From contig NZ_SAVB01000028.1 in NCBI RefSeq assembly GCF_004022265.1, positions 1 through 64,000 of the forward strand: 64,000 nt of DNA. The letters run 5' to 3'. Positions 44,497 through 61,104 of the stretch are shown here, in pieces. The number at the start of each line of letters is the position of its first letter. The first letter of the stretch is position 1. The translations under genes were made by a program, and so were the position numbers. This DNA is from Paenirhodobacter ferrireducens (GTDB lineage Bacteria; Pseudomonadota; Alphaproteobacteria; Rhodobacterales; Rhodobacteraceae). The notes below the pieces were generated by a model that searched no databases, was not told the DNA's origin, and saw nothing but the letters and a program-made list of their open reading frames with translations.

Positions 44497-44878
44497 CGGA
44501 CCACGCTTCGCCAAAGCATACAGAGGCGGGTGGGGGGAGGGGCGTATGAGCGGATGAAAGACCCGCCCATTTGCGAGAGCCCGGATCCCGCCCTTGCCGC
44601 GGTGCGACTTTCCCCCGCCGGCCGTTCATCTGCTGCGCCGCGCCCGGCCAGGATTATGGCCGCGATGACGTCACCATGGCCCAGCCGAGAGCGAAGCGCT
44701 GGAGGTGTTTCCGCAAGCGGTCGGCATCATTCGTGCTCGTTCTGTGGCCGCGCGACATCGCGAACAGACGCGCGGCCCGGCATCGCTCAGACTGGTCGAG
44801 CCGCGCCAGCCCCGGATAGTGTCCCCGCCGGTGGTGTCACTTTCGGTGGGCCTCGCGCTCTGATGCGGGCCGGGTTGG
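44497..44878. other. Non-coding interval after kdp
   Basis: I recognise no gene in these 380 bases. GGATAGTGTCCCC and GGTGTCACTTTCGG (about 44814-44845) resemble the ends of IS256-family elements and may be the outer border of the transposase remnant that follows. The rest shows no similarity to proteins that I know. Confidence 0.35.
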
Positions 44879-45352
44879 TCAGTTGCGCTGCGCAGCAGGC
44901 AGGCTGACCATGACACCCTCACAGACCGGCGCGAGCGTTTCGGGCGTCATGTAACGGCCTCTCTGGTCGGTCCATTCCTCGGTCTGCCCAACACGTCGCG
45001 GCGGCCATCGGTGTTCACGCCCGCCGCGATCGTCACGGCGACGGAGACGATCCGGCCAGCTGGATGACGGCCGTCAGCGCCCGCTCCACCGAGCGCCGGG
45101 GCTCGAGAGCGGATGGAGAACAGGTGCCGGTGCGCAGCTCGACGCTGCCGGCCCGCGTCTGCCGGTCTCGCCCGCGCTGGCCGTTATACTGCGCCAGCCG
45201 CTCGGGGTCTTCTCGCCGTAGTCGGTGCAGGTCTTGGCGCCGACCTCCAACTCCCTCAGACGTTCGGCCGCAAAGCCGATCCTCTCACGCGGCAGACCGG
45301 CATCTCCGTTCCTCTTCAGGAGCGCGCGGAGATCCATCATGGGGTTGGTCAT
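44879..45352 (-). pseudogene. IS256-family (mutator) transposase remnant
   Basis: The start is clear: MTNPMMDLRALLKRNGDAGL, then RIGFAAERLRELEVGAK, is the usual IS256-type N-terminus. After YGEK the family sequence goes on in another frame (RRSVERALTAVIQ). Farther on, a short block (AAGVNTDGRRDVLG) matches the catalytic region. The end (WTDQRGRYMTPETLAPVCEG, then SLPAAQRN) matches the C-terminus. Only about 470 of the usual 1200 bases remain, so large internal deletions and frameshifts have occurred. Confidence 0.78.
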
Positions 45353-45660
45353 CGGGGCTGTCCTTCGGGGCAGGCTGGTTGTCGCAACCCGACCCTGCCG
45401 GGAACCCCGATGGCCACCGACACCTATAACCACGACAACGGACGTCCCCCCGGCGGCAAACCTGCGGCGGTTCACCGGCCCGGTCTGCCGCAGCAAGAAG
45501 AAAAATATTCGTCTGCGCGATGCAACGTCGCGCGTCCTTTTTCTTGCAACCATCGTCCGGCAGAACAGATTCAGCGAATTCGCCCACATCATTCATCTAT
45601 AATTGCGATCGTTATTATCGTCTTTAATCTGGCGTCAGATCCAACCAGCCGGAGATGACG
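45353..45660. promoter_or_regulatory. Leader region of the ABC-ferredoxin-flavoprotein operon
   Basis: There is no convincing gene. The last 60 bases are AT-rich and contain TATAAT at 45598-45603, a good -10 box without a clear -35 partner. A GGAG Shine-Dalgarno at 45651-45654 fits the ATG at 45661 better than the one at 45655. The left part adjoins the IS256-type remnant, so the control region may have been changed by that insertion. Confidence 0.4.
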
Positions 45661-46710
45661 ATGTTCAGGAAATTTACAGTGCTGTCGGCCCTTGCGGCTG
45701 CGTTGATGTCGGGTGCCGCCGCGATTGCCGGCGGGCTTCCGCAGGAGATCCGCTTCGGCGATGTCGGCTTCGGGTTCGGCAAGCCGTTCGGCGTCGGGCT
45801 GCTGGCGATCGCCGATGCCAAGGGCTTCATCGCCGAGGAGTTCAAGGGCACCGGGGTCAAGCTCGACTGGACCTATTTCACCGGCACCGGCCCGGCGATC
45901 AACGAGGCCTTCGCCAACGGGCAGGTGGACTTTGCCTCCTATGGTGCGGTGCCGAACATCGTCGGCGCGGCGAACGGGCTCGACACCGTGATCGTCGCCT
46001 CGACGCAGGGCACCAACATCTTCGCCGTCGCGCGCACCGGCAGCGGCATCGAGAGCCTCGCCGACCTGAAAGGCAAGCGCGTCGCGCTGCAGAAGGCGAC
46101 GATCATCCACTGGGCGGCGCTCGAGGCGCTGCGGCACGCCGGGCTGAGCGAAAAGGATATCACGCTGATCGACCTCAAGAACGCCGATCAGCTCGCCGCG
46201 ATCAGTGCGGGCAGTGTCGACGCGGTGTTCGGCGCCGATTTCCTGCTGCCGCTCGAGCAGAAGGGGGTGGCGAAGGTGGTCTTCTCTTCGGCCCGCGACG
46301 ACCGCGAGGTCTCGGGTTTCGGCGGCTTCCTCGTGTCGCGGCAGTTCCGCGACGCCTATCCCGAGGCCACGCAGAAGGTCGTCGACGGCTATGTCAGGGC
46401 GGCTGCCTGGCTGGCCGATCCGGCGAACCGCGAAGAGGCCTTCCGGATCTGGAACCGGGCGGGCACACCGGTCGATCTCATTCGCCGGTCGAACGCCGAT
46501 ACCGACTTCCGGCAGGCCTATGATCCGCGCCTCGATGCGGTGTTCGAGCAGCGCTTCGCAAGTGCGCTCGCGTTCACCAGAGCGCAGAAACTGACCCGCA
46601 AGACCCTGGATCTTGCCGCCTGGGCGGATGGCCGTTTCCTTGCGAAGTCGCTCGAGGACGAGGGGCTCGCGGCGGTCTGGCCCGACCGGCCTGCCACCGG
46701 TACGAACTGA
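45661..46710 (+). CDS. ABC transporter substrate-binding protein (nitrate/sulfonate/taurine type)
   Basis: A 349-residue periplasmic binding protein with a signal peptide (TVLSALAAALMSGAAAIAGG). It belongs to the SsuA/TauA/NrtA-like family, as shown by the segments YFTGTGPAINEAFANGQVDF, LADLKGKRVALQKAT and LIDLKNADQLAAISAGSVDA. Start 45661 is chosen by Shine-Dalgarno spacing. It is first of six genes in one direction: binding protein, two permeases, ATPase, ferredoxin, flavoprotein. A sulfonate or another small organosulfur/nitrogen ligand is expected from the family. Confidence 0.9.
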   Translation: MFRKFTVLSALAAALMSGAAAIAGGLPQEIRFGDVGFGFGKPFGVGLLAIADAKGFIAEEFKGTGVKLDWTYFTGTGPAINEAFANGQVDFASYGAVPNIVGAANGLDTVIVASTQGTNIFAVARTGSGIESLADLKGKRVALQKATIIHWAALEALRHAGLSEKDITLIDLKNADQLAAISAGSVDAVFGADFLLPLEQKGVAKVVFSSARDDREVSGFGGFLVSRQFRDAYPEATQKVVDGYVRAAAWLADPANREEAFRIWNRAGTPVDLIRRSNADTDFRQAYDPRLDAVFEQRFASALAFTRAQKLTRKTLDLAAWADGRFLAKSLEDEGLAAVWPDRPATGTN

Positions 46711-46719
46711 GGCGGGACG

Positions 46720-47583
46720 ATGAGCGATCTTTCCGTCAGCACCGTTCCCGGGCAGGGCGCGGCGCCCCTCGCGCGGCGCGCGCGGCCTGCGCGGCAACCG
46801 GCCCTGCGGCGCGCGCGGACCCTGCAGCGCGCGGCCTTCCGGGCGCTGCCCTGGCTCTCGCCGCTCGCCGGCCTGCTGCTGTGGCAGCTCGCGGCGGAAT
46901 GCGCTCTGGTCTCCGAGCATATCCTGCCGGCACCCGGCCGCGTTCTCGCGACACTCGGCGAGCTGTCGCACAGCGGCGAGCTGTGGTCGGCCGCCCGCAT
47001 CAGCCTGTGGCGGCTGACGGTGGGGTTGCTGATCGGCGCGCCGCTCGGATTTCTCTTCGGCCTGCTGCTCGGCGCCTCGCCGCGCGCCGAAGACTGGCTT
47101 GGCCCCAGTTTCCGCGCCATCGCCGCGGTGCCGGCCCTGGGCTGGATTCCGGTGCTGATCCTGCTTGTCGGCATTGACGAGGTGCTGAAGGTCATCATCC
47201 TGATCAAGGCCTGCTTCGTGCCGGTGGCGATTGCCAGCCGCGACGCCTGGCGCGCGGTGCCGGCGCGCTACGCCGAGCTTGGGCGCGTGCTCGGGCTCTC
47301 GCCGCTGCGGCAGCTCTGGAGGATCCGCCTGCCGGCGATGGTGCCGACGCTGTTTTCGGGCCTGCGCCTCGCCTCCGGTCAGGCCTTCGTGTCGCTCGTC
47401 ACCTGCGAGATGCTCGCCGCCACCGATGGCCTTGGTTATCTCATGGTCTGGGGCCGGACGCTCTTCCAGATGGACCTGGTCATCGTCGGGATGATCGCCG
47501 TCGGTTCCGCCGGCATCGCGCTCGACCGGCTGCTGCGCGGAGGCGAGCGGGCCTTGCGCGCAAGGATGGGCGACGATGGCTGA
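46720..47583 (+). CDS. ABC transporter permease (SsuC/TauC type), first of two
   Basis: A 287-residue inner-membrane permease with an Arg-rich cytoplasmic N-terminus and about six membrane segments. The EAA-type loop is ARYAELGRVLGLSPLRQLWR. AVPALGWIPVLILLVG fits the SsuC/TauC family. Most relatives work as a homodimer of one permease, but here a second, different permease gene overlaps the end by eight bases. A heterodimeric pore is therefore likely. Confidence 0.9.
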   Translation: MSDLSVSTVPGQGAAPLARRARPARQPALRRARTLQRAAFRALPWLSPLAGLLLWQLAAECALVSEHILPAPGRVLATLGELSHSGELWSAARISLWRLTVGLLIGAPLGFLFGLLLGASPRAEDWLGPSFRAIAAVPALGWIPVLILLVGIDEVLKVIILIKACFVPVAIASRDAWRAVPARYAELGRVLGLSPLRQLWRIRLPAMVPTLFSGLRLASGQAFVSLVTCEMLAATDGLGYLMVWGRTLFQMDLVIVGMIAVGSAGIALDRLLRGGERALRARMGDDG

Positions 47584-48322
47584 GCTGTCCTGGAAGGGGC
47601 TGGTGCTCCCCGCGGCCGCGCTGGCCGCCTGGTCGCTTGCCGTCGAAAACCACCTGCTGGGCGGTCCGATGGCGGTGTCTCCCGTCGCGCTTCTGCAGGT
47701 GCCCGTCACCGACCCGGACGGGCGCGAGATCTGGGCCGCCCTTGGCGCCAGCCTGGTGCGGCTTGCCCTTGGCGGCAGTCTCGGCGCCGTCGCCGGGATC
47801 GGCCTTGGCCTCGCCCTCGGCCTGTCGCGGCCCCTCGGCCGGGCGCTGTCGCCAAGCATCGACACCCTGCGCCAGATCGCGCTTTTCGCCTGGATCCCAC
47901 TGCTGACGGCGTGGTTCGGCACCAGCGAGACGGCGAAGATCGTCTTCATCGCCCTCGGCACGTTCTTCCCGCTGGTGCTGGCGACGCAGCAGGGGGTGCG
48001 CGCGACCCCGGCCGGGCTCGTCGAGCTGGTGCAGGTGCTCGGCCTGTCGCCGCGGCGGCGGATCACCGCGCTCTATCTGCCCGCGGCCTTGCCCTCGATC
48101 GCCGTGGGCGTGCAGATCGCGCTGATCTCCGCCTGGATCGGAACCGTGGGCGCGGAATACGCGATCGGCAACGGCCGCGGCCTTGGCGCCTATATCGCGA
48201 GCGGGCGCGAGCAGTTCCGCATGGATATCACCCTCGTGGGCGTGCTCGCGCTCGCCCTGATCGGTGTCGCGCTCCACGCGCTCGGCGCCCGTCTGATCCG
48301 TCACCTCGACAAGGCAACCTGA
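47576..48322 (+). CDS. ABC transporter permease (SsuC/TauC type), second of two
   Basis: A 248-residue inner-membrane permease. It has the family segments LRQIALFAWIPLLTAWFGT and PAGLVELVQVLGLSPRRRIT (EAA-type loop), with IALISAWIGTVGAEYAIG later. It overlaps the first permease and ends one base before the ATPase start. The two permeases are only distantly similar, consistent with distinct halves of one channel. Confidence 0.9.
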   Translation: MAELSWKGLVLPAAALAAWSLAVENHLLGGPMAVSPVALLQVPVTDPDGREIWAALGASLVRLALGGSLGAVAGIGLGLALGLSRPLGRALSPSIDTLRQIALFAWIPLLTAWFGTSETAKIVFIALGTFFPLVLATQQGVRATPAGLVELVQVLGLSPRRRITALYLPAALPSIAVGVQIALISAWIGTVGAEYAIGNGRGLGAYIASGREQFRMDITLVGVLALALIGVALHALGARLIRHLDKAT

Positions 48323-48323
48323 C

Positions 48324-49097
48324 ATGAAAACCTCCCCACTTCTGTCCGTTTCCGGCGTCTCTAAATCCTTCCCCGTGAACGGCGTGCCCTTCCGCGCACT
48401 CGCGGATGTCGGACTGGAGCTCCGGCGCAACGAGATCATCGCCGTGATCGGCGCATCCGGCTGCGGCAAGTCGACCTTGCTGCGCTGCATCGCCGGGCTT
48501 GAAACCCCGGACAGCGGCACGCTTGCGATTGCGGGCGTGCCGGTGACCACGGCCGGGCAGGGCAGCGCGGTGGTGTTTCAGGACCATCGTCTGCTGCCCT
48601 GGCTCACGGTGCGCGGCAATGTCGAGCTTGCGCTCGAGCCGCTCGCCATGACCGCGGCCGAGCGGCAGGCGCGGGCGGCGCGCTATATCGCCCTCGTCGG
48701 GCTCGACGCCTTTGCAGAAAGCTATCCGCGGCAGCTTTCGGGCGGCATGGCGCAGCGCGCCGCGATCGCCCGGGCGCTGGCGGTGGAAACCGATCTCGTG
48801 CTGATGGACGAGCCGTTCGGGGCGCTCGATTCGATCCTGCGCACCCGGATGCAGGAAGAGCTGCTGAAGATCTGGCGGGCCCATCAGGTCTCGATCCTGA
48901 TCGTCACCCATGACATCGAGGAGGCGCTCTATCTGGCGGATCGGGTGGTCGTCATGCGGCCCGGCCCCGGCCATGTGCACGAGGTGGTCGAACTCGCCCT
49001 GCCGCGGCCGCGCAGTCGCGACACCGAGGCGTTCTCGCAGCTGCGCGGCCATCTTCTGGCGGCGCTGGCCCAAACGCCTGCGGAGGTCGTGGCATGA
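48324..49097 (+). CDS. ABC transporter ATP-binding protein (SsuB/TauB type)
   Basis: A 257-residue ATPase on the cytoplasmic side of the importer. Walker A is GASGCGKST, the signature is QLSGGMAQRAAIARAL, Walker B is LVLMDEPFGALD, and the switch histidine lies in IVTHDIEEALYLADRVVVM. Its last bases overlap the ferredoxin start (ATGA), which ties the redox genes to the transporter by translational coupling. Confidence 0.93.
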   Translation: MKTSPLLSVSGVSKSFPVNGVPFRALADVGLELRRNEIIAVIGASGCGKSTLLRCIAGLETPDSGTLAIAGVPVTTAGQGSAVVFQDHRLLPWLTVRGNVELALEPLAMTAAERQARAARYIALVGLDAFAESYPRQLSGGMAQRAAIARALAVETDLVLMDEPFGALDSILRTRMQEELLKIWRAHQVSILIVTHDIEEALYLADRVVVMRPGPGHVHEVVELALPRPRSRDTEAFSQLRGHLLAALAQTPAEVVA

Positions 49098-49492
49098 TCG
49101 AGCTTGTGTCCCTCAGCCGCTGCGTGCGCTGCGATCTGTGCTTCGGGGTCTGCCCGATGGATGTGTTCGACCGGGCCGAGGACGGGCTTCCGGTGATCGC
49201 CCGCAAGGAGGATTGCCAGACCTGCTTCCTGTGCGAGGCGCATTGCCCGACCGATGCGCTCTATGTGGCGGCCGAACGGCGGCCGGCCCTGACGCCGACC
49301 GAGGCGGAGCTGGCGGAGCGTCAGCTTCTCGGCAGCTATCGGGCGCGGCTTGGCTGGGGCAAGGGCCGCCGTCCGCCCCGAAGTTTCGACGAGGCGCTCG
49401 CGCTCTCACAACGGCCGGAGGCCGCCCCCGGGGTTTCGCCCATGGCGCTGCAACCGGGCGCACAGCCCGGGAAGGAGGCATATCATGGCTGA
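49094..49492 (+). CDS. Two-cluster 4Fe-4S ferredoxin-like protein (AprB-like)
   Basis: A 132-residue cytoplasmic iron-sulfur protein. Two motifs, CVRCDLCFGVCP (Cys10, 13, 16, 20) and CQTCFLCEAHCP, bind two 4Fe-4S clusters. After about residue 60 there is a tail without cysteines. It resembles the iron-sulfur subunit of the adenylylsulfate-reductase/fumarate-reductase-like pairs. It overlaps the ATPase gene and its stop lies just past the flavoprotein start, so it should be the electron partner of that flavoprotein. Confidence 0.88.
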   Translation: MIELVSLSRCVRCDLCFGVCPMDVFDRAEDGLPVIARKEDCQTCFLCEAHCPTDALYVAAERRPALTPTEAELAERQLLGSYRARLGWGKGRRPPRSFDEALALSQRPEAAPGVSPMALQPGAQPGKEAYHG

Positions 49493-51047
49493 CGGAGCCG
49501 GGCATTTCGGCGCGGAGCTGCATCTTGCGACAGATGTCCTCGTGATCGGCGGCGGCCCGGCCGGCACCTGGGCCGCCCTCGCGGCCCGCGCGGCCGGGGC
49601 CGAGGTGATCTTGGTGGACAAAGGCTGGTGCGGGGCTTCCGGCGTTGGCGCCGCGGCGACCATCGGCCATTGGTGGGTGGCGCCGGAAGGGCGCGCCGCG
49701 GCGATGGCGGCAAAGGCCGTCGATGCCTGCGGGCTTGCCGACGAGGCCTGGATGGAGCGCGTTCTTGCGGAGACATGGGCCAGCTGGCCGCGCTTTGCCG
49801 AGAGCCGCGGCTATGTCGGCGATCCGACCTATCGCAGCGGGCGCGGCGGGCAGGTGGTGGTGCAGGGGCCAGTCTATCTGCGCGAGATGCGCCGGCTCGT
49901 GCTGCGGGCGGGGGTCACCATCCTCGATCATGCGCCGGCGGTCTCGCTGCTGATGGATGCCGCCTGGCGCTGCGCCGGTGCCGAGGGGGTGCTGCGGCAG
50001 AAGGACCAGCGCTGGCGGGTCGACGCCCGTGCCGTGGTGATGGCGGCCGGCGGGTCGGCGCTGCGCAGCGGCTGCATCGGCTCGAGCGTCAATACCGGCG
50101 ATGCGCTGCTGATGGCGGCCGAGCTTGGTGCCGAGTGGTCGGGGATGGAATTCTCGAACTATTACGGCATCGTGCCGAAAGGCGGGTCGGTCGACAAGAA
50201 CGGCTATCTGCTGCAGGCGGCGTTCTTCGATGCGGCCGGGCATCAGGTGCATCTCGGCTGGTCCTCGCCCTATGGCGTCATGGGCACCGCGGCCGCCCCG
50301 CTCTTCGGGCACGAACCGGTCTTTTGCCAGTTCACCCAGGTGCCCGAGGCGAACCGCCCGTTCCTGCGGGCCGGGCAGCCCAATCTCTTCACCCAGTTCG
50401 ACCGGCTTGGCGTGGACCCGTTCACCCAGAAATTCGAGGTCGAGCCGATGTTCGAAGGCTCGGTGCGCGGTTCGGGCGGGATCGTCGTCAAAGGACCGGA
50501 CTGCGCCTCGTCGGTGCCGGGGCTTTGGGTGGCGGGCGATGCCGCCTCGCGCGAGATGCTGGTCGGGGCCTCGTCGGGGGCGGGCGCGATCAACGCGGCC
50601 TGGACGCTTGCCTCCGGCAGATGGGCGGGGCTGGCAGCTGCGCGCTCGGCCCGCGAGGGCGCGCCGGGGCGCGGGGAGCGGGCAAGGGAGCCCGTGTCCG
50701 GGCGCCGGATCGCGGCGGTGCGGCCGCTGCTGCAGGCGCTTCAGGCTGAGGTCCTGCCGATCCGCCGCAATGGCTTTCGCTGCGACCGGACACTCAACGA
50801 GACTCTGGCGCTCACCGCCGAACTTGAAGATGAGCTGCAGACCGCCCCGCGCGCCGCGGATGCGCGCAGCGCGCTTTTTGCGCGGGAACTGTCGGGCATG
50901 CTGTTCCACGCCCGGACAGGCGCCAGCGCCGCCCTTGCCAGGACGGAAAGCCGGGGCGTGCATCAGCGCACGGATTTTCCCGCGACATCTCCTTGCACAT
51001 GGCAGAGGCGGCTTGCGGGGCGGGGGCTCGACATGACGCTTCGGTGA
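49485..51047 (+). CDS. FAD-dependent oxidoreductase, fumarate-reductase/AprA-like
   Basis: A 520-residue flavoprotein. The FAD motif is VIGGGPAGTWAALAARAAGAE near residue 20, then DKGWCGASGVGAAATIG; GLWVAGDAASREMLVGASSG and the C-terminal ESRGVHQR fit the fumarate-reductase/succinate-dehydrogenase flavoprotein family, which includes adenylylsulfate reductase AprA. The ATG at 49485 follows GGAAGGAGG; it overlaps the ferredoxin gene by eight bases. With an organosulfur-type importer it may oxidise or reduce the imported compound. The substrate is not known. Confidence 0.87.
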   Translation: MADGAGHFGAELHLATDVLVIGGGPAGTWAALAARAAGAEVILVDKGWCGASGVGAAATIGHWWVAPEGRAAAMAAKAVDACGLADEAWMERVLAETWASWPRFAESRGYVGDPTYRSGRGGQVVVQGPVYLREMRRLVLRAGVTILDHAPAVSLLMDAAWRCAGAEGVLRQKDQRWRVDARAVVMAAGGSALRSGCIGSSVNTGDALLMAAELGAEWSGMEFSNYYGIVPKGGSVDKNGYLLQAAFFDAAGHQVHLGWSSPYGVMGTAAAPLFGHEPVFCQFTQVPEANRPFLRAGQPNLFTQFDRLGVDPFTQKFEVEPMFEGSVRGSGGIVVKGPDCASSVPGLWVAGDAASREMLVGASSGAGAINAAWTLASGRWAGLAAARSAREGAPGRGERAREPVSGRRIAAVRPLLQALQAEVLPIRRNGFRCDRTLNETLALTAELEDELQTAPRAADARSALFARELSGMLFHARTGASAALARTESRGVHQRTDFPATSPCTWQRRLAGRGLDMTLR

Positions 51048-51072
51048 AGGGGACGTCTCGCTTATCGCAGCG

Positions 51073-51087
51073 ATAGCTCAGGCCTAT
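51073..51087. promoter_or_regulatory. Candidate LysR box upstream of the second peptide-type importer
   Basis: ATAG-CTCAGGC-CTAT, a T-N11-A dyad with 4-base arms, lies 109 bases before the binding-protein gene and is followed by TTGCG. The same ATAG-N7-CTAT form lies ahead of ridA (62095-62109), and CCTATTTG recurs at 58762-58769. It is probably a target of the LysR regulator at 61105-62040. Confidence 0.5.
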
Positions 51088-51195
51088 TTGCGCCGCTGAC
51101 GGCGATGGCCGAATGATTTCTCCATCCTCGGGCGCGGAGGCGACTTCGCGCCGTGAAGGCACAAGAATATGTCCAAACGACAAGGGAGAATTTTC

Positions 51196-52743
51196 ATGAA
51201 GCGCATTCTGGCGGCCGTCGTCGCGAGTTTCCTGGCCGTGGCGCCATCGCTGGCTGATCCGGTCGCCGGCGGGCGGGCGAATGTCGTCATCCAGCCCGAA
51301 CCGCCGAGCCTGATGCTCGGCCTCGTGCAGAACGCTCCGGCCCAGCAGGTCGCGGGCAACATCTACGAAGGGCTGCTGCGCTACGACACCAAGCTGAACC
51401 CGATGCCCTCGCTGGCGAAAAGCTGGGAGGTCTCGGACGACGGTCTGACCTATACCTTCCACCTCCAGAGCGGGGTGACGTGGCATGACGGACAGCCGTT
51501 CTCGGCCGATGACGTGGTGTTCAGCGCCGACGTGTTCCTGCGCAAGACCCATCCGCGGTTCCGCGCCGTGCTCGATCATGTCGAAAGCATCACCGCGCCC
51601 GACGCGGGTACCGTGGTGTTCCGCCTGAAATCGCCCTTCGGCCCGTTCCTGAACAGCTTCGAGGTCGGTTCGATGCCGATCGTGCCGAAGCACATCTACG
51701 AAGGCACCGATTTCGCCACCAACCCGGCCAACAACACCCCCATCGGCACCGGCCCGTTCAAGTTCGCCGAATGGGTGAAGGGGTCGTATATCAAGCTGGT
51801 GAAGAACCCCGATTACTGGGATCAGGGCAAGCCTTACCTCGACGAGGTTTACTGGCACGTGATCCCCGATGCCGCCTCGCGCGCGGTGGCCTACGAGACC
51901 GGACAGGTCGACATCCTGCCCGCCGGCTCGATCGAGAATTTCGACATCGACCGGGTGAAGGCGCTGCCCAATACCTGCATCACCCAATCCGGCTGGGAGT
52001 TCTTCGGCCCGCAGTCCTGGGTGTGGCTGAACAACCGTCAGGGCCCGACCGCGAGCAAGGAATTCCGTCAGGCGATCCTGTATGCGCTCGACCGCGAGTT
52101 CATCCGCGATTCGCTGTTCAACGGCCTCGGGCAGATCCCGAACGGCCCCTTCGCCGGCTCCACCCGCTACAACGACACCGACCTGAAGCCCTGGCCCTAC
52201 GATCCGGAGAAGGCGAAGGCACTGGTCAAGGCCTCGGGCTACAAGGGCGAGGTGCTGAAGCTGGTGCCGATGCCCTATGGCGAGACCTGGATGCGCCTCG
52301 CCGAGGTCATCAAGCAGAACCTCGCCGATGTGGGCATCAAGGTCGAGATCGTCTCGACCGACGTGGCGGGCTGGAACCAGCATCTGTCGGACTGGGATTA
52401 CGACCTGTCGACGACCTATCTGTATCAGTATGGCGATCCGGCGCTTGGGGTGTCGCGCAGCTACGTGTCGGGCAACATCAAGAAGGGCTCGCCCTGGAAC
52501 AACGTCGAGGGCTATTCGAACCCGAAGGTCGATGCGCTGTTCGACACGGGTGCGGGCACCGTCGATCCGGCTGAACGCAAGGCCGCTTATGACGCGGTGC
52601 AGAAGATCCTCGTCGACGAGGTGCCGAACGCCTGGCTGCTCGACATGGGGATGCCGACGATCAGCCGCTGCTCGGTCAAGGATCTCGTCACCACGGGCAT
52701 CGGCCTGAACGACGGGTTCAAGAACGCCTGGATCCAGAAGTGA
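51196..52743 (+). CDS. ABC transporter binding protein, SBP family 5 (peptide/opine type)
   Basis: A 515-residue periplasmic binding protein with a signal peptide (ILAAVVASFLAVAPSLADP). Family blocks are SLAKSWEVSDDGLTYTFHLQ, TWHDGQPFSADDVVFSADVF, TPIGTGPFKFAEWVKGSYI and FRQAILYALDREFIRDSLF. The ATG at 51196 has AAGGGAGAA upstream. It heads an operon with two permeases, a fused ATPase, an FAD oxidase and an acetylpolyamine-amidohydrolase-like enzyme. The ligand may be an N-acylated amine or peptide; this is inference. Confidence 0.9.
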   Translation: MKRILAAVVASFLAVAPSLADPVAGGRANVVIQPEPPSLMLGLVQNAPAQQVAGNIYEGLLRYDTKLNPMPSLAKSWEVSDDGLTYTFHLQSGVTWHDGQPFSADDVVFSADVFLRKTHPRFRAVLDHVESITAPDAGTVVFRLKSPFGPFLNSFEVGSMPIVPKHIYEGTDFATNPANNTPIGTGPFKFAEWVKGSYIKLVKNPDYWDQGKPYLDEVYWHVIPDAASRAVAYETGQVDILPAGSIENFDIDRVKALPNTCITQSGWEFFGPQSWVWLNNRQGPTASKEFRQAILYALDREFIRDSLFNGLGQIPNGPFAGSTRYNDTDLKPWPYDPEKAKALVKASGYKGEVLKLVPMPYGETWMRLAEVIKQNLADVGIKVEIVSTDVAGWNQHLSDWDYDLSTTYLYQYGDPALGVSRSYVSGNIKKGSPWNNVEGYSNPKVDALFDTGAGTVDPAERKAAYDAVQKILVDEVPNAWLLDMGMPTISRCSVKDLVTTGIGLNDGFKNAWIQK

Positions 52744-52747
52744 CCCC

Positions 52748-52779
52748 GTTCCCCGGTGCGTGGCAAGCGCGCCGGGGAC
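52748..52779 (+). terminator. Intercistronic hairpin after the binding-protein gene
   Basis: GTTCCCCGGTGC (52748-52759) pairs with GCGCCGGGGAC (52769-52779) with one bulged T and one G-U pair, giving an 11-bp stem a few bases after the binding-protein stop. TTTC follows. As in the first peptide importer, it may let the binding protein be made in excess. Confidence 0.6.
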
Positions 52780-52801
52780 TTTCATGCGCGGAACGACATT
52801 C

Positions 52802-53776
52802 ATGAAGATCGCTACCCGTATCGCCGCCCGGCTGGCCAAGGCAGCCGTGGTGCTGCTGGCCATTCTGGTGCTGAATTTCCTGCTGATCCATGCCGCACCG
52901 GGAGATCCGGCGGTGGTAATGGCCGGCGAGGCCGGGGCCACGGATGACGTGTTCCTCGCGCAGCTGCGCGAGAAGTTCGGCCTCGACCAGCCGCTTTACA
53001 TGCAGCTCGGCAAATATGTCTGGGATGTGCTGCATCTCGATCTCGGCTTCTCCTATCGCCAGCAGATGCCGGTGTTCGATCTGCTGATGGACCGGCTTCC
53101 GGCGACGCTGTTGCTGACCGGCTCGGCCTTTGCGGTGTCGCTGATCCTCGGCGTCGCGGCGGGGGTGCTGGCGGCGTCGCGGGTGGGGAAATGGTCCGAC
53201 ACGCTGATCTCGACCGTGGCGCTGCTGTTTTACGCCACGCCGCTGTTCTGGGCGGCGCTGATGGGGGTGCTGCTGTTTTCGGTGGTGCTCGGCTGGCTGC
53301 CGCCCTTCGGTTACGAGACGGTGGGATCGGGCTTCACCGGGATTCGCCGCGCGCTCGACATTGCGCAGCATCTGGCGCTGCCGGCGCTGTCGCTCGGTCT
53401 GTTCTTCATGGCGGTCTATTCGCGCATGACCCGGGCCTCGATGCTCGAGGTGGCGCAGCTCGATTTCGTCAAGACCGCGCGCGCCAAGGGCCTGTCCCGC
53501 GCCGTGATCGAACGGCGCCACATCCTGCGCAACGCGCTGTTGCCGATCGTGACGCTGGCGGGGCTGCAGGCCGGCCAGCTGGTCGGCGGCGCGGTGCTGA
53601 CCGAGACCGTCTTCGCCTGGCCCGGCATCGGCCGGCTGATGTTCGAGGCGCTGACACAGCGCGATTACAACGTTCTGCTCGGGGTGTTCTTCGTCTCGGC
53701 GGCGATGGTGATCGTGTTCAACCTGATCACCGATCTGATCTACGGGATCGTCGATCCCCGCATCCGCGCGCAGTGA
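52802..53776 (+). CDS. Peptide-type ABC transporter permease (DppB/OppB-like)
   Basis: A 324-residue inner-membrane permease with about six membrane segments. The N-terminal segment contains AVVLLAILVLNFLLIHAAPGDP. The EAA-type loop is LDFVKTARAKGLSRAVIERR, and FAWPGIGRLMFEALTQRDYN follows in the usual place. The ATG at 52802 (MKIATRIAARL) is preferred; ATG at 52784 is possible. It pairs with the DppC-like permease 19 bases downstream. Confidence 0.92.
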   Translation: MKIATRIAARLAKAAVVLLAILVLNFLLIHAAPGDPAVVMAGEAGATDDVFLAQLREKFGLDQPLYMQLGKYVWDVLHLDLGFSYRQQMPVFDLLMDRLPATLLLTGSAFAVSLILGVAAGVLAASRVGKWSDTLISTVALLFYATPLFWAALMGVLLFSVVLGWLPPFGYETVGSGFTGIRRALDIAQHLALPALSLGLFFMAVYSRMTRASMLEVAQLDFVKTARAKGLSRAVIERRHILRNALLPIVTLAGLQAGQLVGGAVLTETVFAWPGIGRLMFEALTQRDYNVLLGVFFVSAAMVIVFNLITDLIYGIVDPRIRAQ

Positions 53777-53795
53777 CAGGGACAGGAGACTTGTG

Positions 53796-54635
53796 ATGAA
53801 AGATTTCTGGCACCGTTTCCGCGCCAACAAGGGCGGGATCATCGGGCTGGCGCTGCTGGCGGCGATCGTGGCGGTCGCGCTGCTGGCGCCGCTGCTGTTT
53901 CCGGGCAACCCGTGGAAGATGGTGGCGCGTCCCTTCGTGCCGCCGTTCGAGGGGATGAAATTCCCGCTCGGCACCGATACGGTCGGGCGCAACGTGGCGG
54001 CGGGGCTGGCCTATGGCGGGCGGGTGTCGCTGCTGGTGGGGCTGGTCTCGACGCTTGCCGCGTTGCTGATCGGCATCCCGGTCGGCGCGCTCGCGGGCTA
54101 TTTCGGCGGCCGCATCGACGATCTGCTGATGCGCGTGACCGAGTTCTTCCAGACCGTGCCGAGCTTCGCCCTCGCCATCGTGATCGTGGCGATCTTCCAG
54201 CCCTCGGTGGTGTCGATCACGCTTGCCATCGGCATCGTGTCCTGGCCGCCGGTGGCGCGGCTGGTGCGCGGCGAGGTGATGTCGCTGCGCCAGCGCGAAT
54301 ATATCGAGGCGGCGATCTTGCAGGGCCTGTCGACGCCGGCGATCATCTTGCGCCAGATCCTGCCCAACGCGGTTTCGCCGATCATCGTGATGGCCTCGCT
54401 GATGGTGGCCTCGGCGATCCTGCTGGAAAGCTCGCTGTCGTTTCTCGGCCTCGGCGATCCCAACCTGATGAGCTGGGGCTACATGATCGGCGCGGCGCGC
54501 ACGGTGATCCGTCAGGCGTGGTGGCTGTCGCTGTTTCCGGGCGTGGCGATCGTGCTGACGGTGCTGGCGCTGAACCTGATCGGCGAAAGCCTGAATGACG
54601 CGCTGAACCCGCGCCTGTCGCGCCGGAGGAGCTGA
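53796..54635 (+). CDS. Peptide-type ABC transporter permease (DppC/OppC-like)
   Basis: A 279-residue inner-membrane permease of normal DppC length, unlike the long form in the first peptide importer. It has the motifs LGTDTVGRNVAAGLAYGGRV and QREYIEAAILQGLSTPAIIL (EAA-type loop). The ATG at 53796 with AGGAG at a good distance is preferred to the GTG three bases earlier. The ATPase gene starts one base after the stop. Confidence 0.92.
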   Translation: MKDFWHRFRANKGGIIGLALLAAIVAVALLAPLLFPGNPWKMVARPFVPPFEGMKFPLGTDTVGRNVAAGLAYGGRVSLLVGLVSTLAALLIGIPVGALAGYFGGRIDDLLMRVTEFFQTVPSFALAIVIVAIFQPSVVSITLAIGIVSWPPVARLVRGEVMSLRQREYIEAAILQGLSTPAIILRQILPNAVSPIIVMASLMVASAILLESSLSFLGLGDPNLMSWGYMIGAARTVIRQAWWLSLFPGVAIVLTVLALNLIGESLNDALNPRLSRRRS

Positions 54636-54636
54636 G

Positions 54637-56223
54637 ATGGACATCGAACCCACCCTGAGCATCGAACATCTGACCGTCGATCTGCCCGAGGGCGCCGACC
54701 GTCCGCACGCGATCCGCGACGTCTCGCTGCAGTTGTGGCCCGGGCGCACGCTGTGCATCGTGGGCGAATCCGGTTCCGGCAAGTCGATGTCGGCGAATGC
54801 GGTGATGGGGCTGTTGCCGAAGGGCGTCAGCGTCGGCGCCGGCCGCATCCTGTTCGGCGGCCGCGACATCACCCACCTGAGCGAGGCGCAGTATCAGGAG
54901 CTGCGCGGTCAGGGCATCGCGATGATCTTCCAGGAGCCGATGACCGCGCTCAACCCGCTGATGCGGATCGGTGCGCAGATCGCTGAGGTGTTCGAGGCCC
55001 ATGGTCGCCTCGCCCCCGCCGAGCGCGCGGCCCGGGCGCTGCAGCTGCTGCGCGAGGTCGGCATCCCCGACCCAGAGCGCGCTCAGTTCGCCTATCCGTT
55101 CCAGCTCTCGGGCGGGCAGCGCCAGCGCGTGGTGATCGCGATGGCGCTGGCGCTGGAGCCGCGGGTGCTGATCGCGGACGAGCCGACGACCGCCCTCGAT
55201 GTCACCACGCAGGCGCAGATCCTGCGCCTCATCAAGGACTTGCAGACCCGGCACGGGATGGCGGTGATGTTCGTCACCCACGATTTCGGCGTCGTGTCCG
55301 AGATCGCCGATGACGTCGCGGTGATCGAGCTGGGCGAGCTGGTCGAGCAGGGCCCGGCCGAAAAGGTGCTGAAGGCGCCCGATCACCCCTATACCCGCCG
55401 GCTGATCGCCGCGATCCCGACGGTCGAGTTCCGCGACGAACCGGCGCGCGAGGAACCGCTGCTGCGGGTGCGCGATCTGGTCAAGGAATTCCGCACCGGG
55501 GCGCGGGTGGTGAAGGCCTCGGATCACGTCACGCTCGATCTGATGCGGGGCGAGACGCTGGGGATCGTGGGCGAATCCGGCTCAGGCAAGTCGACGCTCG
55601 GGCGCGCCATCGTGCAGCTGGTCACACCCGATTCCGGCACGATCGAGATGGACGGCAAGGATATCTCGCATCTCAGGGGCGCAGCGCTGCGCGCGCATCG
55701 CAAGCGGATCCAGATGATCTTTCAGGATCCCTATGCCTCGCTCAATCCGCGCGCGCGCATCGGCCGCATTCTGACCGAAGGCCCCATCGCCCACGGCCGC
55801 CCCCGCGCCGAGGCCGAGGCACGGGCCCGCGAACTGCTGAGCCTCGTCGGGCTGAAGGCCTCGGCGATGGAGCGTTTCCCGCACGAATTCTCGGGCGGTC
55901 AGCGCCAGCGCATCGGCATCGCCCGGGCGCTCGCCCTCGAACCCGAGATCATCGTCGCCGACGAGGCGGTTTCGGCGCTTGATGTCTCGGTGCAGGCGCA
56001 GGTGCTCGATCTGCTCGAGGATCTGAAGCAGCGGCTCGGTCTGACCTTGCTGTTCGTCACCCATGACCTGCGTGTCGCGGGCAAGATCTGCGACCGGATC
56101 GCGGTGATGCAGAAGGGGCGCGTGGTCGAACTCGGCTCCGTCGAACAGGTCTTCCGCGCCCCGCGCGAGGCCTATACGCGCAGCCTGCTCGATGCCGCGC
56201 CGGGGCTGGAGGTGCAGCCATGA
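54637..56223 (+). CDS. Peptide-type ABC transporter, fused dual ATP-binding protein
   Basis: A 528-residue protein with two ABC domains. Walker A motifs are GESGSGKSM and GESGSGKST. The signature motifs are QLSGGQRQRV and EFSGGQRQRI. Walker B segments are VLIADEPTTALD and IIVADEAVSALD; the second has Ala-Val in place of Pro-Thr, which is common in such proteins. It powers the two permeases. The last four bases overlap the start of the FAD oxidase (ATGA), so transport and oxidation are coupled in expression. Confidence 0.93.
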   Translation: MDIEPTLSIEHLTVDLPEGADRPHAIRDVSLQLWPGRTLCIVGESGSGKSMSANAVMGLLPKGVSVGAGRILFGGRDITHLSEAQYQELRGQGIAMIFQEPMTALNPLMRIGAQIAEVFEAHGRLAPAERAARALQLLREVGIPDPERAQFAYPFQLSGGQRQRVVIAMALALEPRVLIADEPTTALDVTTQAQILRLIKDLQTRHGMAVMFVTHDFGVVSEIADDVAVIELGELVEQGPAEKVLKAPDHPYTRRLIAAIPTVEFRDEPAREEPLLRVRDLVKEFRTGARVVKASDHVTLDLMRGETLGIVGESGSGKSTLGRAIVQLVTPDSGTIEMDGKDISHLRGAALRAHRKRIQMIFQDPYASLNPRARIGRILTEGPIAHGRPRAEAEARARELLSLVGLKASAMERFPHEFSGGQRQRIGIARALALEPEIIVADEAVSALDVSVQAQVLDLLEDLKQRLGLTLLFVTHDLRVAGKICDRIAVMQKGRVVELGSVEQVFRAPREAYTRSLLDAAPGLEVQP

Positions 56224-57629
56224 GCGAGCTTCTGGCCGCTCTGGCGGCGATCGTCGGGCCGGTGCATGTGCTGACGGGGGCCGACACCGCCCCCTGGGAC
56301 AGCGACTGGACCGGGCATTACCGCGGTGCGCCTCTGGCCGTGGTGCGCCCGGCCGACCGCGACGAGGTGGCGGCGGTGCTGCGTCTGGCCAGTGCGCAGG
56401 GCGTGGCGGTGGTGCCGGTCTCGGGCAACACCGGGCTGAACGGCGGCGCGCTCGGCGAGGGCGCGATTGCGCTGTCGCTCGGGCGGCTGAACCGGCTGCG
56501 CGAGATCCGCGCGGACGCGCGCGTCGCGGTGGTCGAGGCCGGGGTGATCGTCGATGCGCTGAACGCGGCGGCGGCGGAACAGGGGCTGATGTTCCCGCTG
56601 TCCTTCGGCGCCTCGGGTTCGGCGATGATCGGCGGCGTGCTGTCGACCAACGCGGGCGGGGCGAATGTGCTGCGCTACGGCAATACCCGCGATCTGTGTC
56701 TGGGCGTCGAGGTGGTTCTGGCCGACGGCCGGGTGATGGATCTGATGACGGCGCTGCACAAGAACAACTCGGGCTTCGATCTGCGCGATCTGGTGATCGG
56801 CGCCGAGGGGCAGCTTGGCATCATCACCGCGGCGGTGCTGAAACTGCATCCGCTGCCGGCGACGGTGGTCACCGCGATGGTGGCGATGGAGACGCTTGAT
56901 CCCGCACCGGGGCTGCTGAACGCGTTGCAGGATGCCTCGGGCAATGCCGTCGTCGCCTTCGAGTTCATGCCGCGCAGCTTCGTCGAGGGCTATCTGGAGA
57001 TCGTCCCCGACAGCCGCGAGCCGTTCGACGCCCCCCATCCCGTCAACCTGCTGGTCGAGCTTGCCGCGCCGCAGCCGGGCGAGGGGCCGGGCATGGCGCT
57101 CGAATCCGTTCTCGCCGCGGCGATGGAAGAGGGCACTGTCACCGATGCGGTCATCGCCCAGAACGAGGCGCAGCGGCGCCAGATGTGGGCCCGGCGCGAG
57201 GCGGCGGCGGAAATCTCGTTCCGCCGGAACCCGGTGATCGACACCGACATCGCCGTGCCGCGCGACCGGGTGGCGGATTACCTGCGCCGGATCGAACCGC
57301 GCCTTCAGGCCCGCGATCCGGGCTGCGGGCTGATGTCGGTCGCGCATCTGGGCGACGGAAACATCCATTACACCTGCTATCCGACGCGCGACGAGCCCGC
57401 CCTGATGGCCGCTCTGCGCGCCGAGATCGACGCGCTGGCGATGGAGCTGAACGGCACCTTCTCGGCCGAGCACGGGGTGGGGCTGTCGAAGCTCGCCCCG
57501 ATGGCGCGCTACAAGGATCCGGTGGCGCTCGACGCGATGCGGGCGATCAAGGCGGCGCTCGATCCGCGCGGAATTCTCAATCCCGGCAAGACGCTTCCCC
57601 CGGCCGGGGCCAACAGGACAGGAGACTGA
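56220..57629 (+). CDS. FAD-linked oxidase, D-2-hydroxyacid dehydrogenase type (GlcD/D2HGDH-like)
   Basis: A 469-residue flavoprotein of the VAO-type FAD-binding family. The FAD site includes VVRPADRDEVAAVLRLA, VVPVSGNTGLNGGAL and GGVLSTNAGGANVLRYGNT. The C-terminal part has SVAHLGDGNIHYT and the metal-site type FSAEHGVGLSK. Relatives oxidise D-lactate, glycolate or D-2-hydroxyglutarate to keto acids. It is coupled to the ATPase and lies one base before the polyamine-deacetylase-like gene. It probably oxidises a hydroxy acid released from the imported substrate. Confidence 0.87.
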   Translation: MSELLAALAAIVGPVHVLTGADTAPWDSDWTGHYRGAPLAVVRPADRDEVAAVLRLASAQGVAVVPVSGNTGLNGGALGEGAIALSLGRLNRLREIRADARVAVVEAGVIVDALNAAAAEQGLMFPLSFGASGSAMIGGVLSTNAGGANVLRYGNTRDLCLGVEVVLADGRVMDLMTALHKNNSGFDLRDLVIGAEGQLGIITAAVLKLHPLPATVVTAMVAMETLDPAPGLLNALQDASGNAVVAFEFMPRSFVEGYLEIVPDSREPFDAPHPVNLLVELAAPQPGEGPGMALESVLAAAMEEGTVTDAVIAQNEAQRRQMWARREAAAEISFRRNPVIDTDIAVPRDRVADYLRRIEPRLQARDPGCGLMSVAHLGDGNIHYTCYPTRDEPALMAALRAEIDALAMELNGTFSAEHGVGLSKLAPMARYKDPVALDAMRAIKAALDPRGILNPGKTLPPAGANRTGD

Positions 57630-57630
57630 C

Positions 57631-58653
57631 ATGAAGGTCTTTTTCGACGAACGCCAGCGGCTGCACGATCCGCGCTTCCGGTTGCAGGACGGCAAGGTGG
57701 TGCTGAACCCCGACCGCCCCGACCGCGTGGCGGAGCTGTTGCGCGGTGCGCTGGCGGCAGGGCTGACGGCTGCGCCGAGCACCGATCACGGGATGGCGCC
57801 GCTCGCCGCGCTGCACACGCCGCGCTATCTGTCGTTCCTGCGTACGATCTACGACCGGCGTCGTGCCGAGGTGACCGACCTTGTCGAGGTCGTCCCCGGC
57901 CGCATCGTCCCTGAGCGCGAGCGGATCTATGCCTGGACCACCGAGGCGCAGATCGGCTACCACAACACCGATACCTCCTGCCCGATCTCGGCAAAAAGCT
58001 GGGAGGCGATCTACTGGTCGGCGCAGACCGCGCTGAGTGGCGCGGACGAGATCCTGTCGGGCGCACGCCGGGCCTATGCGCTGTCGCGCCCCTCGGGCCA
58101 TCATGCCTATCGCGAGGTCGCGGGCGGGTTCTGCTTCCTCAACAACAGCGGCATCGCGGCCGAGTATCTGCGCGCGCGCGGCCACCGCCCGGCGATCCTC
58201 GATATCGACGTGCATCACGGCAACGGCACGCAGGGCATCTTCTACGAGCGTGACGACGTGCTGACGGTCTCGCTGCATGTCGATCCGGAACAGTTCTACC
58301 CGTTCTATGCCGGCGGCGCGCAGGAGTGCGGCGCCTGCGCGGGGATCGGCTACAATCTGAACCTGCCGCTCGCCCGCGGCACCGATACCGAGGGCTATCT
58401 CGCCGCGCTCGACCGTGCGCTCGATCAGATCGCCTGTTTCGGGGCCTCGGTCGTGGTGGTGGCGCAGGGGCTTGATGCGCATGAGGACGATCCGTTCCAC
58501 GGCCTTGGCGTGACCACGGCGGGCTTCGCGCGCATCGGTCGGGCGATCGCTGGCCTCGGCCTGCCGGTGCTGAGCGTGCAGGAAGGCGGGTACATGCAGC
58601 CGAGCCTGCACGCCAACCTCACCAGCCTTCTCGCAGGGCTGCAATCGGCCTGA
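57631..58653 (+). CDS. Acetylpolyamine amidohydrolase-like histone-deacetylase family enzyme
   Basis: A 340-residue zinc hydrolase of the histone-deacetylase fold. The catalytic His157-His158 pair lies in RPSGHHAY. Zinc ligands are probably Asp193 and His195 (DIDVHHGNGTQ) and Asp282 (QGLDAHEDDPF). Length and residue positions closely match characterised acetylpolyamine amidohydrolases (about 341 residues), which deacetylate acetylputrescine, acetylspermidine and similar amines. It is last in the second peptide-type importer operon, so it may act on an imported N-acylated amine. A good hairpin follows. Confidence 0.9.
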   Translation: MKVFFDERQRLHDPRFRLQDGKVVLNPDRPDRVAELLRGALAAGLTAAPSTDHGMAPLAALHTPRYLSFLRTIYDRRRAEVTDLVEVVPGRIVPERERIYAWTTEAQIGYHNTDTSCPISAKSWEAIYWSAQTALSGADEILSGARRAYALSRPSGHHAYREVAGGFCFLNNSGIAAEYLRARGHRPAILDIDVHHGNGTQGIFYERDDVLTVSLHVDPEQFYPFYAGGAQECGACAGIGYNLNLPLARGTDTEGYLAALDRALDQIACFGASVVVVAQGLDAHEDDPFHGLGVTTAGFARIGRAIAGLGLPVLSVQEGGYMQPSLHANLTSLLAGLQSA

Positions 58654-58679
58654 CGAACCGCCCGGCACCAGCCGGTAGC

Positions 58680-58704
58680 CGCGTCCGGGAAGGCCCCGGG
58701 CGCG
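58680..58704 (+). terminator. Hairpin after the amidohydrolase operon
   Basis: CGCGTCCGGG, loop AAGGC, CCCGGGCGCG: a 10-bp stem with one G-U pair, followed by GTTTCGG. It lies 27 bases after the stop and is the likely end of the operon. Confidence 0.65.
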
Positions 58705-58742
58705 GTTTCGGCATGCCAGATTCCCGGGATAACCTTTCCAGA

Positions 58743-58769
58743 TCATAGGCATAGCCTGCACCTATTTGA
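58743..58769. promoter_or_regulatory. Candidate LysR box upstream of the M20 hydrolase operon
   Basis: CATAGGCATAGCCT (58744-58757) matches CATAGGCAAAGACT at 62094-62107 in 12 of 14 bases. ATAGG (58745-58749) and CCTAT (58761-58765) also form an inverted repeat. It sits about 105 bases before the hydrolase gene. The likely binder is the LysR protein encoded at 61105-62040. Confidence 0.55.
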
Positions 58770-58867
58770 GTTCCGGCGGCCGCGGTGCTTGTCTGGCGGC
58801 GACGGGGAGCCCGCCTCCCGCCCGCTGCCGCGCCCGGTGGCGACATCCGACACTCCAGGAGGTTCCC

Positions 58868-60118
58868 ATGAGCTTTACCCCCGATGCCCGCATCGACCTC
58901 GACCGCTACTGGTCGACCATCCAGCGCTCGGCCGAGATCGGGCAGGGCCGCGAAGGGGGCCTTGCCCGCCTGACCCTGACCGACAGCGACCGCGAGATGC
59001 GCGATCAGTTCGTCGCCTGGTGCGAGGCCGCGGGCCTTGCCGTCCGCGTCGACGAGATGGGCACGATCTACGGCCGGCGCGAGGGCACCGAGCCCGGCCT
59101 GCCGCCGATCCTGATCGGCAGCCACCTTGACACGCAGATCAACGGAGGCCGCTTTGACGGCATCGCAGGGGTGCTGGCCGGGCTCGAGGTGGTCCGGACG
59201 CTGAACGATCTCGGCCATGTGACGAAGCGGCCGATCGTCGTCGTCGACTGGACGAACGAGGAGGGCGCGCGCTTCTCCCCGCCGATGATTGCCTCAGGCG
59301 TCTTCGTCGGGCGCTACACGGCGGACTGGGCGCATGCACTGATCTCGGACGACGGGGCGCGCTTTGGCGACGAGCTTGAACGCATCGGCTACAAGGGGGA
59401 GATGCCCTGCGGTGCGGCGCCCGGGGACGTCGACGCCTATTTCGAGCTGCACATCGAGCAGGGGCCGATCCTCGATGCCGAGAAACGCCAGGTGGGCGTG
59501 GTCACCGGCGGCTATCCGAGCTACGGCATCCGCGTGCGGTTCGACGGCGAGACCGCACACACCGGCCCGACGCCGATGGACCTGCGCCACAATGCGCTGA
59601 TCGCCGGCGCGCGATTCCTGACTGCGGTCGACGATATCGGCTGGGATTTCGCGGTGATGGACGGCAAGGCCACCGGCTCGCGCCTCGCCGCCTGGCCGAA
59701 CAAGCCCGGCATCCTGTCCGAGACCGCGCAATGCGTCGCCGATGTGCGCCACCCGGACCCGATCACCGCCAAGGTGATGGCCGAGAAGATGCGCCGCGCC
59801 GCGCATGAGGCCGGTGCGCGTGCGGGCTGCTCCGTTACCATCGAGGACGAATGGGCCTGGGGCGGTGATATCTTTGACCATGGCATGGTCGACGCGATCC
59901 GCGCCGAGGCGGTGCGCCAGGGCTGGAACTGGCGCGACATCGAGGCCCAGGCCGGCCACGACGCCTATCACATGGCGATGCGCTTTCCGAGTGCGATGAT
60001 CTTCACCCCCTGCAAGGGCGGCATCACCCACAACAACAACGAAAGCTGCACCCCCGGCGATCTTGTTGCCGGGGTGAACATGCTGCTGCATGTGGCCGTG
60101 GCGCGGGCGGATCGCTGA
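58868..60118 (+). CDS. M20-family Zn-dependent amidohydrolase (N-carbamoyl-L-amino-acid hydrolase/allantoate type)
   Basis: A 416-residue metal hydrolase. Ligands of the two-metal site are visible: His86 and Asp88 in GSHLDT, Asp97 in GRFDG, Glu131-Glu132 in NEEG, and a His in ELHIEQGPILD. RFDGETAHTGPTPMDLRHNA and the late AGHDAYHMA fit the hydantoinase/carbamoylase subfamily, which splits N-carbamoyl amino acids, ureido-glycolate or allantoate. The ATG at 58868 follows AGGAGG. It overlaps the next gene by one base and is likely regulated by the LysR protein downstream. Confidence 0.88.
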   Translation: MSFTPDARIDLDRYWSTIQRSAEIGQGREGGLARLTLTDSDREMRDQFVAWCEAAGLAVRVDEMGTIYGRREGTEPGLPPILIGSHLDTQINGGRFDGIAGVLAGLEVVRTLNDLGHVTKRPIVVVDWTNEEGARFSPPMIASGVFVGRYTADWAHALISDDGARFGDELERIGYKGEMPCGAAPGDVDAYFELHIEQGPILDAEKRQVGVVTGGYPSYGIRVRFDGETAHTGPTPMDLRHNALIAGARFLTAVDDIGWDFAVMDGKATGSRLAAWPNKPGILSETAQCVADVRHPDPITAKVMAEKMRRAAHEAGARAGCSVTIEDEWAWGGDIFDHGMVDAIRAEAVRQGWNWRDIEAQAGHDAYHMAMRFPSAMIFTPCKGGITHNNNESCTPGDLVAGVNMLLHVAVARADR

Positions 60119-61047: not shown

Positions 61048-61073
61048 CGCCTCGGGCGAAGGCGCGGCGGGCA

Positions 61074-61103
61074 GGGGGGCGATGACGCCCCCCTTTCGGT
61101 TTT
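61074..61103 (+). terminator. Rho-independent terminator after the cyclodeaminase-like gene
   Basis: GGGGGGCG, loop ATGA, CGCCCCCC (61074-61093) followed by TTTCGGTTTT. This is the clearest intrinsic terminator in the window. It lies between convergent genes and may serve both. Confidence 0.85.
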
Positions 61104-61104
61104 C

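Follow-up and report, generated by a model that had tools for sequence, protein, structure and literature searches.

A coupled six-gene operon of Paenirhodobacter ferrireducens combines an SsuA-family importer with a divergent AsfA/AsfB pair and probably serves sulfur scavenging from sulfonates

In the aryl-desulfonation cluster asfRABC of Pseudomonas putida S-313, insertion mutants of asfA lose the use of aromatic sulfonates and keep that of aliphatic ones, and a binding protein and an ATP-binding cassette (ABC) transporter are reported within the same cluster (PMC4267179). The asf genes have been described as an addition to ssu (PMC10441942), and in Cupriavidus metallidurans CH34 asfRAB is located on CHR2, with AsfA and AsfB (Rmet_4334/5) termed a reductase-ferredoxin (PMC2864759). 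The role published for AsfAB is an electron chain toward a monooxygenase (PMC4267179, PMC2864759), and asfA has been used to mark soil bacteria able to release sulfur from aromatic sulfonates (PMC4267179, PMC9694294). A more distant counterpart is the PAPS reductase of Methanothermococcus thermolithotrophicus, which acts on a sulfur group by means of flavin adenine dinucleotide (FAD) and two [4Fe-4S] clusters (PMC10322725). Here we describe a six-gene operon at 45661–51047 of a 64,000-nucleotide window, which corresponds to bases 1–64000 of contig NZ_SAVB01000028.1 in the 4.07 Mb genome of Paenirhodobacter ferrireducens. Its redox pair is, by sequence, a member of the AsfA/AsfB family, and the operon probably has a role in sulfur scavenging of the asf kind.

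The six genes have one direction and are separated, in order, by +9, -8, +1, -4 and -8 bases. The first (45661–46710, +) encodes an SsuA-family (NMT1) substrate-binding protein of 349 residues (PF09084, 4.2e-17; PDB 3uif, 3.4e-38), and is followed by ABC permease A (46720–47583, +; 287 residues; PF00528, 4.4e-21), ABC permease B (47576–48322, +; 248 residues; PF00528, 4.6e-26), which has an 8-base overlap with permease A, and the ABC ATPase (48324–49097, +; 257 residues; PF00005 ABC_tran, 2.9e-32). The AsfB-type ferredoxin (49094–49492, +; 132 residues) matches Fer4 families in Pfam, and the AsfA-type FAD flavoprotein (49485–51047, +; 520 residues) matches FAD_binding_2 and Succ_DH_flav_C. This layout, a sulfonate-type importer with two permeases linked by gene overlaps to a ferredoxin and a flavoprotein, had been read from the letters in an original prediction, and all six genes were recovered. 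The two CxxCxxCxxxCP motifs that it named in the ferredoxin are also present, and their eight cysteines are invariant in all 28 aligned rows.

The flavoprotein is 43.6% identical over residues 11–516 to a flavoprotein encoded on replicon NC_007974.2 of C. metallidurans CH34, and the ferredoxin is 45.5% identical over residues 1–110 to its ferredoxin partner. Each of the two families has a single place on the replicon, and these two were equated with AsfA and AsfB by this uniqueness and not by locus tag, the record having no gene table. The expectation of an undescribed system was thus not borne out; the family is known, and as far as the searches of the literature reach it is the six-gene arrangement and the lineage that are new. 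No enzyme assay or biochemical study of AsfAB was found among the matches listed in the open-licence literature searched.

Homologues of the flavoprotein were collected from a bacterial and archaeal genome collection (12 loci out of 155 pattern matches) and from plasmids (59 records at E 1e-20). The flavoprotein and ferredoxin genes are adjacent in 31 of 33 loci (L022–L054), and the remaining two, L032 and L033, are cut by contig ends; the ferredoxin of L033 lies on a different contig of that genome, close to where that contig ends. Twenty-two of the 59 plasmid records were viewed around the flavoprotein with flanks of 8 to 12 kb, and in 14 of the 20 that are annotated a binding protein, a permease and an ATPase are encoded in a same-strand run with the pair (in L044 two genes intervene). 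The redox pair is thus co-conserved with an importer, and the six-gene order recurs as well, these being the two checks on conservation that had been proposed earlier. In Paracoccus aminophilus pAMI5 a LysR gene is followed by all six genes in the order of the window, with identities to the window proteins of 73, 71, 70, 73, 66 and 65% in gene order. P. limosus likewise has all six in this order (73, 74, 69, 72, 71 and 69%), but there the flavoprotein is truncated by the contig end and no LysR gene is found within 4 kb upstream. Since all six proteins of the pAMI5 cluster are 65–73% identical and in the same order, the window cluster is not a product of chance. The nearest named relative of the flavoprotein, with 94% identity over residues 1–404, is that of Sinirhodobacter hankyongi, where the ferredoxin and flavoprotein genes, preceded by the end of the ATPase gene, are retained at the start of a contig and no binding-protein match is found in the assembly at E 1e-20. 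The S. hankyongi asfA gene (L022, 880–2440) is itself split over two frames near the contig start, by decay or by an assembly error.

Swapped modules are found in five loci, Haematobacter, P. aminophilus pAMI6, Roseateles, Shinella and Sinorhizobium RAC02, with the order flavoprotein, ferredoxin, binding protein, permease A, permease B and ATPase (RAC02 has two binding proteins). The Roseateles binding protein is 65% identical to that of the window, and its flavoprotein, which belongs to another clade, is 41% identical. That one importer lineage accompanies two lineages of AsfA, arranged in two ways, speaks for a functional connection between the importer and AsfAB. The neighbours of the relatives include sulfur-scavenging genes, namely those for SfnB, luciferase-like monooxygenases (LLM), TauD, rhodanese and arylsulfatase. 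A gene for an LLM, TauD/2-oxoglutarate, P450 or SfnB-type oxygenase, or an annotated monooxygenase, is present in the stretch in 13 of the 20 annotated plasmid loci (in L049 at the edges only), and no annotated oxygenase is found in the stretches of the other seven (L035, L038, L042, L048, L050, L051 and L052). Loci of Pseudomonas, Azotobacter, Caulobacter and one beta-proteobacterium, read by eye, carry TonB receptors, a TauD-like protein, a flavin mononucleotide (FMN) monooxygenase and an AhpC-like protein in varied combinations, and one of these TonB receptors was confirmed by Pfam. Two other arrangements were seen among these loci. In Paenibacillus cellulositrophicus (L038, 11977–16944) two different AsfAB pairs lie in tandem around one binding protein, and in plasmids of Paracoccus and Rhizobiaceae (L036, L043, L045 and L046) two ABC importers located upstream of AsfAB flank CopC/CopD-type genes, which are joined by YcnI/DUF1775 genes in three of the four.

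The binding protein matches the SsuA family model TIGR01728 at 5.9e-44 and 150.4 bits, under the cut-off of 163.5; it is the top SsuA-family match of the genome, in which no protein reaches the cut-off. Permease A has SsuC as its top NCBIfam match, and the ATPase has the nitrate, SaoA and taurine ATPases, all of them under the cut-off, and both permeases and the ATPase score far under the curated SsuABC cut-offs. From these likenesses the importer would be expected to function like SsuABC, though the model scores do not class it as one.

In an unrooted tree of 35 flavoprotein rows the window protein forms one group with those of S. hankyongi, P. aminophilus pAMI5 and P. limosus, with a support of 100/100 and a stem of 1.35 changes per column. 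Of the other groups, one holds 14 rows with the C. metallidurans protein (97/95) and one holds 17 rows with the Pseudomonas proteins (100/98). The window copy is accordingly placed by its sequence as a well supported, long-branched third AsfA lineage. The AsfA of a congener (G540; L058, 1510–3048) falls in the Pseudomonas-type clade, which suggests two acquisitions in the genus, and the congener's copy was probably acquired separately.

The genome encodes five luciferase-family matches, and one of them, on another contig (C2), is SsuD with 582.0 bits to TIGR03565 (cut-off 518.2) and 582.7 bits to NF001939 (cut-off 510). Its gene adjoins those for an NtaA/DmoA-type monooxygenase and for an FMN reductase of the MsuE-like kind (200.2 bits, cut-off 212.5), and the surrounding 19.9 kb contain no homologue of the window operon. 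The original prediction had stated that no oxygenase or desulfonase of the usual kind is present; this holds for the genes of 45661–63286, where the family scan detects no oxygenase (the genes upstream were read by eye only), but not for the genome, which has this SsuD. TauD is not found in the genome at E 1e-10. SsuD scores above its curated cut-off in 14 of 15 flavoprotein-bearing genomes. Among the 18 genomes of the genus, which form the matched set for this comparison, the flavoprotein is found in three and SsuD in four, and all three are among the four, that is, SsuD occurs in 3/3 genomes with the flavoprotein versus 1/15 without it; the chance of this is 0.005, for genomes that share ancestry and so are not independent draws. 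SsuD occurs in four of the 149 genomes of the wider family, including both genomes with a strong flavoprotein match, which are of the same genus as the window; the other two have SsuD and no strong flavoprotein match. A single-protein search of this family gave matches in 130 of the 149 genomes at E 0.001, those listed outside the window genome and one congener being short or weak (best 9.7e-13), and a class-wide search with the family profile, where three candidates were scored per genome, found the flavoprotein in at least 2 of 387 genomes. An SsuD-profile match, mostly under the cut-off, lies within 20 kb of AsfB in 10 of 14 AsfB genomes, a count made with no shuffled control, and the four without such a match are the window genome, S. 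hankyongi and P. limosus, these three belonging to the window's clade, and Pseudomonas sp. dw_358.

We consider it likely that the operon serves sulfur scavenging of the asf kind, in which a sulfonate, probably aromatic, is imported and an electron step of AsfAB enables cleavage of the C-S bond by SsuD. The ABC importer would take up the sulfonate as a sulfur source, AsfA, a flavoprotein of the AprA/FrdA family, would be wired to the two-[4Fe-4S] ferredoxin AsfB and handle electrons in an activating step, and the FMN-dependent SsuD, encoded elsewhere beside an MsuE/SsuE-like FMN reductase, would split the C-S bond. Written as ArSO3- + O2 + 4e- + 3H+ -> ArOH + SO3(2-) + H2O, the reaction on an arylsulfonate would need two electrons beyond those that SsuD uses to convert an alkanesulfonate to the aldehyde. 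AsfAB may handle this extra pair, and an additional two-electron partner would then be needed only with aromatic substrates. The genes, their family, the co-conservation with importers and the co-occurrence with SsuD are observed, and by analogy with asf we infer from them both the AsfAB step and a substrate class of aromatic sulfonates that the divergent window lineage would share. The organosulfur substrate guessed in the original prediction is in our judgement right.

Several observations weigh against this reading. The window flavoprotein is 35–46% identical to the 27 rows outside its own clade in a 29-row alignment (A1), and its group differs at 17 positions from the residue common to 28 or more of the other 31; owing to this divergence the substrate of the lineage may differ. 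The identity to AsfA was measured on the CH34 protein and not on the P. putida S-313 AsfA sequence. No oxygenase gene is near, and two sister genomes have no SsuD-profile match on the contig of the ferredoxin. Caulobacter sp. 602-2, one of the 15 flavoprotein-bearing genomes, has no SsuD above the cut-off, and many of the 15 are pseudomonads and most of the 15 lie outside the window's family, in groups for which there is no background rate of SsuD. The reduced FMN for SsuD is supplied by an NAD(P)H:FMN reductase, and since SsuD uses FMNH2 the path of electrons from AsfB to SsuD is left unexplained. For the same reason, and because Pfam shows no NAD(P)H domain in the flavoprotein, the published electron chain has no obvious donor and acceptor.

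It is tentatively conceivable, though less probable than sulfonate cleavage by SsuD with an electron step of AsfAB, that AsfAB is itself catalytic on the sulfonate or an intermediate in the manner of AprAB, in the window's lineage maybe without a monooxygenase. Flavoproteins of this superfamily act on a substrate and pass electrons to or from iron-sulfur clusters. The likeness to AprA and AprB seen in the original prediction is recovered in profile comparisons, where the flavoprotein family profile aligns with the PAPS reductase alpha chain 8a8o_A in one stretch near end to end (profile 11–508, E 1.3e-30) and the ferredoxin profile with the beta chain at 3.6e-11. However, the best PDB scores of the flavoprotein are to succinate dehydrogenase (SDH) and FrdA chains, an end-to-end alignment is likewise obtained with L-aspartate oxidase (9.9e-26), the beta chain is outscored by several polyferredoxins, and the best stretch with AprA itself is limited to profile positions 10–218; AprAB proper was retained as a likeness only. 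A catalytic AsfAB would agree with the Pfam scan, which shows no second (NAD(P)H) domain in the flavoprotein, the Pyr_redox_2 match covering profile positions 2–120 of 291 only, and with the occurrence of the pair and a binding protein without an annotated oxygenase in the seven plasmid loci and in the scanned genes of the window. It agrees less well with the co-occurrence with SsuD, and all 59 plasmid records come from genera that we take to be aerobic or facultative. A structure model built from nine sequences has a mean predicted local distance difference test (pLDDT) score of 56, too poor for a view of the active site. In a more specific form, which we likewise hold with low confidence, AsfAB would be an AprAB-like enzyme carrying out a two-electron conversion of the arylsulfonate or of its hydroxylated intermediate. 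The window lineage, which has a two-permease importer of its own and no oxygenase close by, would then be a specialised branch in which conserved residues have changed and the substrate is perhaps another. If true, such a step would explain why aromatic and not aliphatic sulfonates need AsfAB.

The binding protein scores under the SsuA family cut-off and the lineage is divergent, and NMT1/SsuA binding proteins are generally known to have varied ligands, so that the import and redox conversion of another ligand of the NMT1 type, such as a nitrogen compound, a sulfinate, a thioamide or a flavin or thiamine precursor, was also considered. The sulfur-scavenging neighbours of the relatives and the co-occurrence with SsuD in the genus argue against it, and we regard it as unlikely. 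A relative of fumarate reductase, succinate dehydrogenase or L-aspartate oxidase in ordinary carbon metabolism, with an unrelated importer, would fit the superfamily, the PDB matches and the best NCBIfam scores, which are to the TfrA, NadB and SdhA/FrdA models. The best of these is however 82.5 bits against a cut-off of 718. The histidine at chain position 233 of FrdA aligns with Tyr227, which is invariant in 29 of 29 rows of alignment A1, and the histidine of the FrdA HYTM motif and the arginine of NRLG align with Glu324 and Ser364 of the window flavoprotein; these three FrdA residues we take to be catalytic, and the arginine of the capping domain is not alignable. With the active-site residues replaced and the scores far under the cut-offs, a fumarate reductase or SDH is rejected; a simple fumarate reductase would have refuted the original prediction, which stands in this respect. 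Since the importer is also co-conserved, the wider carbon-metabolism explanation is highly improbable.

The six-gene operon offers a compact set of importer and AsfAB for expression, and the co-occurrence with SsuD makes the proposed partnership testable. The primers asfAF1all and asfBtoA (PMC9694294) would probably miss the window lineage if they rely on asfB following asfA, because the ferredoxin-flavoprotein order is reversed there.

The promoter scan of the operon detected no σ70 site. The gap upstream contains a decayed remnant of an insertion sequence (IS) transposase of the IS256 family (44820–45450), which matches an annotated Phaeobacter piscinae IS256 family transposase with 83.4% identity in three pieces, no matching record covering 80% of the query. 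The minus-strand open reading frame 45074–45592, also upstream, has no Pfam match. A search with the pAMI5 LysR protein found no asfR-type LysR gene beside the operon; a weak match of 24% over 176 residues (E 3e-7) is located about 10 kb downstream at 61480–62004 (-). Downstream of the operon, from 51169, begins an oligopeptide-type ABC cluster. The region 51169–61047 encodes an Opp/Dpp-type ABC importer, a GlcD-like FAD oxidase, a protein with the histone-deacetylase fold (PF00850), a carbamoylase-type amidohydrolase and a pyrroline-2-carboxylate reductase-like protein, and looks like a cluster that takes up and degrades an opine-like compound or an acylated amine. At the start of the contig (197–315, -) there is an ALIL pseudoknot (Rfam RF01497, 85.7 bits), presumably a mark of IS3-family frameshifting.

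Compared with PAPS reductase and AprAB, the window pair has in common a FAD flavoprotein of the fumarate-reductase family and a ferredoxin with two [4Fe-4S] clusters, but it is distant in sequence, and those enzymes have a nucleotide substrate and no importer. The importer shares with SsuABC and TauABC an SsuA-family binding protein, SsuC-like permeases and the same class of ATPase, whereas it has two permeases and not one, and all its components score under the cut-offs of the SsuABC/TauABC models. The pAMI5 cluster differs in its upstream LysR gene, at the place where the window has the IS256 remnant. Unlike asfRABC of P. putida S-313 and C. metallidurans CH34, where the flavoprotein gene precedes that of the ferredoxin, the window has the ferredoxin before the flavoprotein, the importer upstream in one coupled operon, no adjacent LysR gene, and a separate, long-branched lineage. 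With these asf systems it shares a flavoprotein of the same family, an adjoining two-cluster ferredoxin, an importer within the cluster and SsuD in the genome.

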